A stretch of DNA of 32,586 nucleotides from an uncultured Prevotella sp. (GTDB lineage Bacteria; Bacteroidota; Bacteroidia; Bacteroidales; Bacteroidaceae): positions 1 to 32,586 of the forward strand of contig CAJOHP010000002.1 of assembly GCA_905234355.1 (NCBI GenBank). The letters are read 5' to 3'. Positions 28,502 through 32,049 of this stretch are shown piece by piece (positions within the stretch are counted from its first letter, which is position 1; each line of letters begins with the position of its first letter). Both the position numbers and the translations under genes were made by a program. The notes under the pieces are model-generated. The model searched no databases and was not told the DNA's origin. It was given only the letters and a program-made list of their open reading frames with translations.

Positions 28502-30310
28502 CTATCCTCGCTGTATAGAGGCTTTCTTGCGCTGGTCGTGGTCGAGAATCACCTTGCGCATACGCATCGACTTCGGTGTCACCTCCACCAGTTCGTCCTG
28601 CTTGATATACTCCAGGCACTCCTCCAGACTCATCACCGTCTTGGGGATGATACGCGCCTTGTCGTCAGTACCCGAGGCACGCACGTTGGTGAGCTGCTTG
28701 GCCTTGCACACGTTGATGACGAGGTCGTTGTCGTGCACATGCTCGCCGACCACCTGCCCCATGTAGACGTCTTCACCCGGATCGATGAAGAACTTGCCGC
28801 GGTCCTGCAGTTTGTCTATGGCATAGGCATAGGCCGTGCCGGTCTCCAGGGCAATCATCGAGCCGTTCTGCCGCCGCTCTATCTCGCCCTTGTAGGGCTG
28901 GTACTCCTTGAAGCGGTGGGCCATGATAGCCTCGCCCTGCGAGGCGGTGAGCACGTTGGTGCGCAGGCCTATGATGCCGCGCGAGGGTATCTCGAACTCG
29001 ATGTTCGTGCGCTCGCCCTGGCTCTCCATCGAGGTCATCTCGCCCTTGCGGCGCGTCACCATGTCTATCATCTTCGAGGCAAACTCCTCGGGCACGTTGA
29101 TGGTGAGCTCCTCGATGGGCTCACACCTCACGCCGTCCACCTCTTTATATATTACCTGGGGCTGTCCCACCTGCAGCTCGTAGCCCTCGCGACGCATGGT
29201 CTCGATGAGCACGGAGAGGTGGAGCACGCCTCGGCCGGAGACGACCCACTTGTCGGTAGCGTCTTCAAACGGCTCCACACGCAGGGCGAGGTTTTTTTCC
29301 AGCTCGCGCTCCAGGCGGTCGTTGATGTGGCGTGAGGTGACAAACTTGCCCTCCTTGCCGAAGAAGGGCGAGTCGTTGATGGTGAAGAGCATCGACATGG
29401 TGGGCTCGTCGATGGCGATGGGCGGCAGCGGCTCGGGCTGCTCCAGGTCGCAGATGGTGTCGCCTATCTCAAACTTGTCCAGGCCGATGACGGCACAGAT
29501 GTCGCCACACTCCACGCGGTCGGTGCGGTGGTGGCCCATGCCGTCGAAGGTGTGTAGCTCCTTTATCTTCGTCTTCTCCTGCGAGCCGTCGCGGTGGCAG
29601 ATGGTGATCTGCTGGCCGTCGGCCAGACTGCCGCGGTGCACGCGCCCCACGGCGATGCGGCCGGTGTAGCTCGAGAAGTCGAGTGAGGTGATGAGCATCT
29701 GCGGCGTGCCCTCGTTCTGCTGCGGGGCAGGTATCACCTCGAGTATCTTGTCGAGCAGGTAGGTGATGTCGCCCGTGGGCTTGGCGTAGTCCTCGCCCAT
29801 CCATCCGTTCTTGGCCGAGCCGTAGACCACGGGGAAGTCGAGCTGGTCTTCGGTGGCACCGAGGGAGAACATCAGGTCGAATACCATCTCGTAGACCTCC
29901 TCGGGGCGGCAATTGGGCTTGTCCACCTTGTTCACCACGACGATGGGCTTCAGTCCTATCTCAAGGGCCTTCTGCAGCACAAAGCGCGTCTGCGGCATGG
30001 GACCCTCAAAGGCGTCGACAAGCAGCAGACAGCCGTCGGCCATGTTGAGCACACGCTCCACCTCACCGCCGAAGTCGCTGTGGCCTGGGGTGTCGATGAT
30101 ATTGATTTTAGTGCCTTTCCAGTTGATGCTCACATTCTTCGAGAGGATGGTGATGCCCCGTTCGCGCTCCAGGTCGTTGGCGTCGAGTACTTGGTTGCTG
30201 AGGTCCTGTCCTTCACGAAACAGGTTGCCGGCCAGCATCATTTTGTCCACGAGCGTCGTCTTGCCGTGGTCCACGTGCGCTATGATAGCGATGTTTCTGA
30301 TATCCTGCAT
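28502..30310 (-). CDS. typA: Ribosome-binding GTPase TypA/BipA
   Basis: The 602-residue translational GTPase has G1 AHVDHGKTT (about 11-19), the switch and G2 region [12 protein letters not shown]3 DTPGH, G4 NKVDKP and G5 SAKNGW, followed by EF-G-like domains III and V and the BipA-specific C-terminal domain ending [17 protein letters not shown]. It assists 50S assembly and translation under stress. The ATG at 30310 puts G1 at the normal place; a longer in-frame reading to 30469 crosses the promoter and is rejected. It is transcribed divergently from rpsO. Confidence 0.97.
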
Positions 30311-30493: not shown

Positions 30494-30501
30494 TACCTTT
30501 G
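30494..30501 (+). promoter_or_regulatory. -7 box for rpsO
   Basis: TACCTTTG matches the consensus and is followed by a leader of about 115 bases before the rpsO ATG. Confidence 0.65.
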
Positions 30502-30506
30502 CACCC

Positions 30507-30620
30507 GCTTTTCGGAAAATCCGAAGCATCTGACGATGTGACGCCCCGGCCGTGATTAGCCGGACATGCATCAGAAAGATGTATTTGAGCACCCAATCCT
30601 ATAATCACATCTTTTACATT
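30507..30620 (+). ncRNA. Candidate structured leader of rpsO
   Basis: The untranslated leader can form hairpins. GCTT-(TT)-CGGA (30507-30516) pairs with TCCGAAGC (30520-30527). CCGGC (30546-30550) pairs with GCCGG (30559-30563). ATGCATC (30566-30572) pairs with GATGTAT (30578-30584) around AGAAA, with one G-T pair. GCATC (30526-30530) and GATGT (30535-30539) offer an alternative to the first stem. Ribosomal protein S15 is known to regulate its own leader in several phyla with unrelated RNA structures; assigning that role here is inference. Confidence 0.45.
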
Positions 30621-30890
30621 ATGTATCTCGACAAAGCAAAGAAGCAGGAGATCTTCACCCAGTATGGCCAGTCGGCCACCGACACAGGCTCGTGCGAGAG
30701 CCAGATAGCGCTGTTCACCTATCGCATCAAGCACCTCACCGAGCACCTCAAGCAGAACCACAAGGACTTTGCCACGGCCCGCTCGCTGACCAAGCTCGTA
30801 GGCCGTCGCCGCAAGCTGCTGAAGTATCTCTACAACAAAGACATCAACCGCTATCGTGCACTGATCAAGGCCCTCGGCCTGCGTAAGTAA
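30621..30890 (+). CDS. rpsO: Ribosomal protein S15
   Basis: The 89-residue protein has the exact family length and the four-helix pattern: MYLDKAKKQEIFTQYGQSATDTGSCESQIALFTYRI, HLTEHLKQNHKDFATARSL and LVGRRRKLLKYLYNKDINRYRALIKALGLRK (given here as separate segments of one chain). The DTGS and the SL-x-x-LVGRRRKLL regions contact 16S rRNA. It has a single-gene transcript between the leader and a strong terminator. Confidence 0.98.
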   Translation: MYLDKAKKQEIFTQYGQSATDTGSCESQIALFTYRIKHLTEHLKQNHKDFATARSLTKLVGRRRKLLKYLYNKDINRYRALIKALGLRK

Positions 30891-31047: not shown

Positions 31048-31068
31048 TGCCATCTAAGGGAAAGAGCC

Positions 31069-32049
31069 ATGATAAAGAACAGATACATCCGCTTCGACTG
31101 GGCTGCGAAGTATATGCTTCGCAACAAGGCCGACTTTGCCATCTTCGAGGGGCTGATCTCCGTGCTGGTGAACGAGAAGGTGACCATCGTGGAACTGCTC
31201 GACACCGAGTCGAACCAAGAGTCGCGCAACGACAAGTACAACCGCGTGGACATCAAGGCCAAGAACTCCAAGGGCGAGATCATCCTGGTGGAGATTCAGC
31301 AGACACGCGAGTACGACTACTTGCAGCGTATGATTTACGGCGTGGCAAAGACTATCACCGAGCACATGAACAGCGGCGATGCCTACCGGAACGTGAAGAA
31401 GGTGTTCAGCATCAACATCATCTACTTCAACATGGGCCAGGGCGAAGACTACCTCTACCATGGACAGACCACGCTAAAGGGCGTGCACACAAACGACAGC
31501 CTGGAGCTGACCGACTATGAGCGCGACGACCTGCAGGTGGTGCCGCCCGAACAGGTGTTCCCCGAGTATTATGTCATTCGTGTGAACGTTTTCGACAAGG
31601 AGACTGTCAACGGCTGGCTGGAGGAGTGGATGGACTACCTGAAGAACGAGCGTATCAATCCCGACACCACGGCTCCCGGCCTGCAGGAGGCCCGCAAGCG
31701 TCTGGACCTGCTGAGGATGACCGATGCTGAGCGCCGCCGCTACGAGCACGACATAGACACGCTGGTGCGCGACACCGACGTGATGCGCACCCAACTGCTG
31801 GAGGCCGAGATAAAAGGACGAAAGCAGGGAATGGCTGAAGGATTGGCCGAAGGACGTGAGAAAGGATTGGCCGAAGGTCGTGAAAAAGGATTGGCCGAAG
31901 GTCGTGAGAAAGGATTGGCCGAAGGTCGTGCCGAAGGAGAAACGAGAAAGGCTTTGGAGTCAGCCAGAAGCATGAAGGCCGATGGCATGCCCATAGAACT
32001 GATAGCAAAATACACGGGACTCTCCATGGAGGACGTTGAGAGTCTATAG
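31069..32049 (+). CDS. Rpn-family PD-(D/E)XK nuclease (putative transposase)
   Basis: The 326-residue protein has an N-terminal PD-(D/E)XK nuclease domain of the Rpn/PDDEXK type: IRFDWAAKYML at the start, D61 in RVDIKAK and E75-x-Q77 in ILVEIQQ as metal-binding residues, then YLQRMIYG. After about residue 200 comes a helical segment (MTDAERRRYEHDIDTLVRD), four GLAEGREK-type tandem repeats (about 258-289) and a C-terminal domain ending IAKYTGLSMEDVESL. Rpn proteins were named for recombination promotion; in E. coli some act as antiphage toxins inhibited by a shorter product of the same gene. The ATG at 31069 lies 21 bases after a -7 box. Confidence 0.88.
   Translation: MIKNRYIRFDWAAKYMLRNKADFAIFEGLISVLVNEKVTIVELLDTESNQESRNDKYNRVDIKAKNSKGEIILVEIQQTREYDYLQRMIYGVAKTITEHMNSGDAYRNVKKVFSINIIYFNMGQGEDYLYHGQTTLKGVHTNDSLELTDYERDDLQVVPPEQVFPEYYVIRVNVFDKETVNGWLEEWMDYLKNERINPDTTAPGLQEARKRLDLLRMTDAERRRYEHDIDTLVRDTDVMRTQLLEAEIKGRKQGMAEGLAEGREKGLAEGREKGLAEGREKGLAEGRAEGETRKALESARSMKADGMPIELIAKYTGLSMEDVESL
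31840..31935 (+). repeat. Four 24-bp tandem repeats inside the Rpn-family gene
   Basis: Units start at 31840, 31864, 31888 and 31912, each beginning GGATTGGCCGAAGG. Differences are few: one base in unit 1 versus unit 3, one in unit 2, and the last unit ends GCCGAA. The 24-bp period keeps the reading frame, adding or removing eight residues per unit. Preceding codons (ATGGCTGAA) are a decayed unit. Confidence 0.9.

Follow-up and report, generated by a model that had tools for sequence, protein, structure and literature searches.

A conserved pseudoknot leader of rpsO in Prevotella is a predicted translational autoregulator

The rpsO leaders are a textbook case in which one protein, S15, recognizes several unrelated RNAs in different phyla. 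The locus described here raises the question of whether Prevotella rpsO carries such a leader, and by which structure it could act. We analyzed a window, the whole stretch of 32,586 nt from an uncultured Prevotella sp. (GCA_905234355.1, contig CAJOHP010000002.1, positions 1-32,586, forward strand), which ends with a divergent gene pair. On the minus strand lies typA/bipA (28502-30310; BipA_C PF21018, E 4e-46), outside the leader, and on the plus strand rpsO (30621-30890, ATG at 30621), coding for the 89-aa ribosomal protein S15 (uS15), as identified by Pfam PF00312 (E 4e-33) and solved uS15 homologues. S15 is the only ribosomal protein encoded beside the leader. The gene 3' of rpsO (31063-32046) encodes a PDDEXK_2 family protein and contains a 24-bp tandem repeat of 3.9 copies (31838-31930) coding for GLAEGREK units, the copy number of which looks prone to change.

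Scans for sigma-70 promoters and terminators are uninformative in Bacteroidota, where TAnnTTTG is the established -7 promoter consensus. A box of this type, TACCTTTG, is found on the plus strand at 30494-30501, and TACCTTTGCA or TAATTTTGCA also stands 5' of the leader in relatives. Transcription of rpsO probably starts around 30505-30508, as read from the promoter sequence, and the position of the box gives a leader of about 115 nt (30505-30620, plus strand). The covariance model R1, representing the leader described below, matched 30503-30620 with an E value of 1.5e-17.

Genes for S15 were searched in 200 genomes of the home genus, then in the family, the order and the phylum, and about 250 upstream regions were read. 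Named GTDB relatives, among them Xylanibacter brevis, Prevotella communis and a large number of rumen MAGs, identify the home genus as Prevotella as GTDB broadly defines it, and most of its members read shared the same leader design and the same promoter box. The conserved pattern is TTCGGAAAATCCGA...GCATTCGACGACGT...GTGATTAAGGC...GCGTCGGAAGGATGT...TTAATCA...ATG, and all leaders of this type were placed between the conserved promoter box and the rpsO start. The structure was tested on an alignment of 46 sequences with slid-partner controls and 500 shuffles, and leader-by-leader tests used 112 distinct leaders.

In this layout, P0 comes first, P1, P2 and P3 form a stack around an internal loop of GA/GAA, and pairing between the P3 loop and the tail makes an H-type pseudoknot. 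All elements lie on the plus strand. P0 is the hairpin UCGGA-AAA-UCCGA (30512-30524), which is missing from one short subtype of the leader. P1 joins GCAUCU (30526-30531) to AGAUGU (30577-30582), P2 joins GAUGU (30535-30539) to GCAUC (30568-30572), and P3 joins CCGGC (30546-30550) to GCCGG (30559-30563) in a register that moves by one base between subtypes, the helix strands being assigned from the alignment. Between P1 and P2, the internal loop has a conserved GA on its 5' side (30532-30534) and GAA on its 3' side (30574-30576), identical in 94 of the 112 leaders. Inside the P3 loop, the 5' strand of the pseudoknot, GUGAUUA (30552-30558), was located by loop-tail comparison and alignment, and loop-tail comparison placed its 3' strand, UAAUCAC (30602-30608), 12 nt upstream of the start codon.

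Covariation across relatives, the absence of which the initial annotation had named as refuting, was strong. With P0, P1, P2, P3 and the pseudoknot taken together, 88.8% of the alignment cells were paired, compared with 32-43% in the slid controls; two-sided changes were found in 16 pairs (4 of 5 in P0 and 4 of 5 in P2), and none of the 500 shuffles was as good on any measure. Helix by helix, pairing reached 92% in P0, 97% in P1, 94% in P2 and 90% in the pseudoknot, and the 68% obtained for P3 is due to the register shift between subtypes, which the alignment did not follow. The variable P1 pair 30531/30577 occurred as CG, UA or UG; a C-G and a U-A pair in P1 and a G-C pair near the top of P2 were invariant among the 112 leaders. 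In a structure-free scan of all column pairs, the top two ranks went to P2 pairs and the third to a P1 pair. Against a tree-based null over 6555 pairs, the top pair alone passed E<0.05 (E about 0.01; about 0.3 for the second), so that most of the statistical weight comes from the controls (shuffles and slid partners) together with the coupling between loop and tail.

This coupling was assessed by comparing the P3 loop of each leader with the last 34 nt 5' of its start codon, using shuffled and swapped tails as controls, because the default alignment misplaces the pseudoknot tail of the short subtype, in which TTTAATCATCA fits two registers. At least six contiguous Watson-Crick pairs between loop and tail were found in 111 of 112 leaders, compared with 9% when the tails were shuffled, and at least seven in 79% compared with 2%. 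At least six distinct loop sequences occurred, each with its own matching tail, with co-changing sets such as UGAUUAA/UUAAUCA, UGAUGA/UCAUCA, UGAUUGA/UCAAUCA, GUGACUG/CAGUCAC and GUGGCU/AGCCAC. Every tail from leaders with a GATTA loop (79/79) matched the TGATTAA loop, and 13% matched TGATGAT; every tail from those with a GATGA loop (27/27) matched TGATGAT, and 30% matched TGATTAA; the GACTG and GGCT loops were matched solely by their own tails. The sister genus g8 has further pairs that can be read off the sequences, GGCUGA/UCAGCC in L263 and UUGAUGA/UCAUCAA in L261. The rpsO leader is thus almost certainly a conserved structured RNA with a pseudoknot.

For the window leader itself, the minimum free energy was -30.8 kcal/mol; shuffled sequences averaged -22.0 (z -2.9), and 1 of 200 of them was as good. 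The conserved nested fold lies 3.2 kcal/mol above the best nested fold of the window, pseudoknot not counted, and the pseudoknot helix contributes -5.4 kcal/mol as a duplex value that excludes loop costs. Since the alternative nested fold is better before the pseudoknot helix is added, the window leader may be bistable in these calculations. A three-way junction (GAUGUGA/UCACAUC) from the single-sequence minimum-energy structure was also considered and rejected, being 46% paired in relatives and no better than shuffles.

The 3' strand of P1 contains an almost invariant AUG (30579-30581 in the window), present in 107 of 112 leaders and replaced by ACG in five, about 40 nt 5' of the rpsO start. 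It is often part of AUG-UAA or AUG-UUA, and the window copy is open and in frame with rpsO. AUG has been reported as depleted near starts in Bacteroidota (PMC6847099). The P1 core is without covariation, so something beyond pairing may fix this AUG. A leader peptide or N-terminal extension was rejected, because an uninterrupted frame between the P3 loop and the start codon exists in just 21 of 111 leaders and is thus not conserved.

Model R1 found one copy in each of 62 of the 249 family genomes, restricted to two genera, the home genus and g8 (two matches). It had no hits among the remaining 147 order-sample genomes or in the phylum sample. All 27 matches compared with the position of rpsO, by coordinates or sequences, were directly upstream of it. 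Twelve home-genus members, among them L044, L050 and L055 with 40-50 nt, had unstructured rpsO leaders of about 30-50 nt, an apparent absence or loss of the regulator, and two others looked like degenerate remnants of the leader; the control would be dispensable, since several members of the genus are without it.

How could such a structure act on rpsO? Translation in Prevotella is independent of the Shine-Dalgarno interaction, as shown with P. bryantii (PMC3155529), and because Bacteroidota ribosomes do without this pairing, repression must act by structure near the start codon alone. In the P. bryantii reporter, a structure of -5.2 kcal/mol just upstream of the start codon lowered protein to 0.12 and one of -11.1 to 0.007; protein was unaffected by a hairpin of -9 kcal/mol placed at -21 (PMC3155529). 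In 110 of 112 leaders, 4-15 nt separate the end of the pseudoknot 3' strand from the downstream start codon, a distance inside this inhibitory range as judged by position only. P1, with its end 38 nt from the start, is beyond the sensitive zone, and the pseudoknot lies within it. Closing the pseudoknot should therefore repress translation, and control of translation through the pseudoknot is quite likely.

From these features we predict that the leader is probably a cis-acting translational autoregulator of rpsO with S15 as its effector. Without an excess of S15, the 6-8 mostly weak pairs of the loop-tail helix would form just partly, leaving the 38 nt from P1 to the start codon accessible for ribosomes to initiate. 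Excess free S15 would bind the P2/P3 region, probably through GU/GC steps as in helix 22 of 16S rRNA, and keep the pseudoknot closed, so that structure would cover the initiation region, which has no Shine-Dalgarno sequence, and rpsO translation would fall. We infer S15 as the closing ligand from the exclusive association with rpsO, the precedent of E. coli and mycobacteria, and the GU/GC steps. The S15 site on 16S rRNA is bipartite, combining a three-way junction with a GU/GC motif (PMC4684408), and the pseudoknotted rpsO leaders of E. coli and mycobacteria need a U-G/C-G motif for S15 (PMC10931766). A GU/GC step is found at the top of P2 in 76 of 112 leaders, including U30539.G30568 beside G30538-C30569 of the window, and in P3 in 85 of 112, the window leader not being one of these 85; RNAs in general often contain such steps. 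The aligned leaders showed no conserved 16S-like three-way junction, and mimicry of the 16S site is suggestive only.

The strongest competing explanation, which we regard as unlikely, is that the pseudoknot is a translation element independent of S15 (an intrinsic repressor, a thermosensor or a standby site) and tunes rpsO without feedback, for which the loop-tail helix alone would be strong enough by the P. bryantii data. Its conserved core, with the invariant C-G, U-A and G-C pairs and the widely identical GA/GAA loop, nevertheless exceeds what an occluding helix needs and so points to a bound partner, and in several other phyla S15 is known to control its own synthesis through rpsO leaders (PMC10931766). 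That this partner is another ligand, either a ribosomal protein such as bS6:bS18 or S1 or a small molecule, appears improbable: a single ribosomal gene lies downstream, the model matches once per genome and at rpsO wherever checked, and the GU/GC steps fit S15, although the assignment of a ligand by gene association alone is uncertain (PMC7247131).

The fold in the initial annotation, with independent small stems and a local GCATC/GATGT switch, is very improbable as the basis of control. Its pairings can all be drawn in the window, where the elements TTCGGAAAATCCGAA (30511-30525), CCGGC/GCCGG (30546-30550/30559-30563) and ATGCATC/GATGTAT are present and GCATC (30526, 30568) and GATGT (30535, 30578) each occur twice, as described. 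The first two of its three stems are conserved and correspond to P0 and P3. The third is not; its 70% paired cells are carried by wobbles, its two outer pairs fail in 37 and 26 of the 46 sequences, and the pseudoknot had been missed. Of the competing pairing, the local hairpin (30526-30530/30535-30539) shows no two-sided change and is unsupported by relatives, but GCATCT and AGATGT pair over a long range (30526-30531/30577-30582) as P1, the repeated motifs being the strands of P1 and P2. The structured rpsO leader, overlapping the initiation region and matching no Rfam family, has the form expected of an S15 autoregulator and supports the initial proposal in part, in a fold that differs from the proposed one in most details. 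Conservation through DNA-level signals (a promoter or regulator of the divergent typA) can practically be discounted. The intergenic region is common to typA, but paired changes, and a loop and tail that are coupled across some 50 nt, are signatures of RNA structure, and the rpsO promoter stands between typA and the leader.

The pseudoknot leader is one of several designs found at rpsO within the family. In genus g12, the last 90 nt before rpsO form an extended hairpin with an apical GGCUGAAA loop, and in 14 sequences (L074, L075, L084, L087, L090, L095, L109, L134 and L268-L273) this was 96.4% paired compared with 29-46% in slid controls, with eight two-sided pairs; an AGCC alternatively pairing with the loop GGCU could make it a switch. 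Genus g8 has a third type within the last 75 nt before rpsO, a short hairpin GCAGU/GCUGC followed by the conserved ACAAGUUUAA, in which the U.G beside G-C never varies among ten sequences (L082, L083, L093, L097, L128, L129, L262 and L265-L267). This genus is mixed, L261 and L263 carrying the pseudoknot type instead. In further genera of the sample, g3 for example, the rpsO leaders are short and look unstructured. From these sequences, turnover of candidate S15 leaders within one family is plausible, as the g12 and g8 leaders differ and genera like g3 appear unstructured. A combined and bolder reading, to which we give slightly less than an even chance, is that the pseudoknot leader is a new structural class and that S15 leaders were invented or replaced at least three times in this one family (the pseudoknot, g12 and g8 types) beside genera with no structured leader; if this is true, the family is a natural experiment on the origin of new protein-RNA regulation.

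With regard to described leaders, known or predicted bacterial S15 leaders come from Gammaproteobacteria, Firmicutes, Thermus, Alphaproteobacteria, Actinobacteria and, weakly, Chlamydia (PMC4137082, PMC4684408, PMC10931766), to which Eckert and Weinberg (2020) added a borderline Flavobacteria type and two archaeal S15 leaders (PMC7247131). The initial statement that no Bacteroidota type had been described is wrong, because Rfam holds RF03161 S15-Flavobacteria (PMC7247131). Its covariance model matched neither the window leader nor the relatives with the pseudoknot leader, and in the same run it recovered, as a control, five of the eight rpsO leaders taken from other Bacteroidia families. Since these five matches come from several such families, RF03161, although rated borderline, appears to be a genuine and fairly broad family. 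No Rfam 15 family matched the leader at gathering thresholds, permissive thresholds gave spurious microRNA, snoRNA and sRNA matches only, and the RF00114 S15 model (E. coli type) did not match the window leader even with E values of up to 10 allowed. In the literature searched we found no report of a Prevotella rpsO leader; the main text of a human-microbiome RNA survey contains none, and an unnamed overlapping prediction may be present in its supplementary tables (PMC8040213).

Relative to the published and Rfam types, the pseudoknot leader is very likely a new class. It adds a well-supported leader class in a dominant rumen and gut genus, and the variety among sister genera offers closely related test cases for the gain and loss of a regulator. 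The pseudoknot leader could also find use in Prevotella genetics as a compact control element.

Among the nearest known systems is the E. coli rpsO leader (RF00114), which shares an H-type pseudoknot linking a hairpin loop to the initiation region, a GU/GC step and translational autocontrol, the last being predicted for Prevotella. The E. coli leader uses its U-G/C-G motif in an entrapment mechanism and its pseudoknot embraces the start codon, whereas the Prevotella pseudoknot lies upstream of the start codon, in a leader with the extra P0, the stacked P1 and P2, the GA/GAA internal loop and no Shine-Dalgarno sequence. The mycobacterial (Actinobacteria) leader also has its pseudoknot 5' of the initiation site and a U-G/C-G motif and is thought to block ribosome binding rather than entrap the ribosome (PMC4137082, PMC10931766), but by its description it is set apart as a kissing-loop type with other helices and with the ribosome-binding site in its H2 helix. 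RF03161, an rpsO leader of the same phylum, is modelled as a single simple A/U-rich hairpin of 66 nt without a pseudoknot. The rpsO leaders of Geobacillus and Thermus likewise hinder ribosome access to the initiation region, yet they do so by mimicking the 16S three-way junction, in contrast to the Prevotella leader, whose conserved features are stacked helices and a pseudoknot rather than such a junction.
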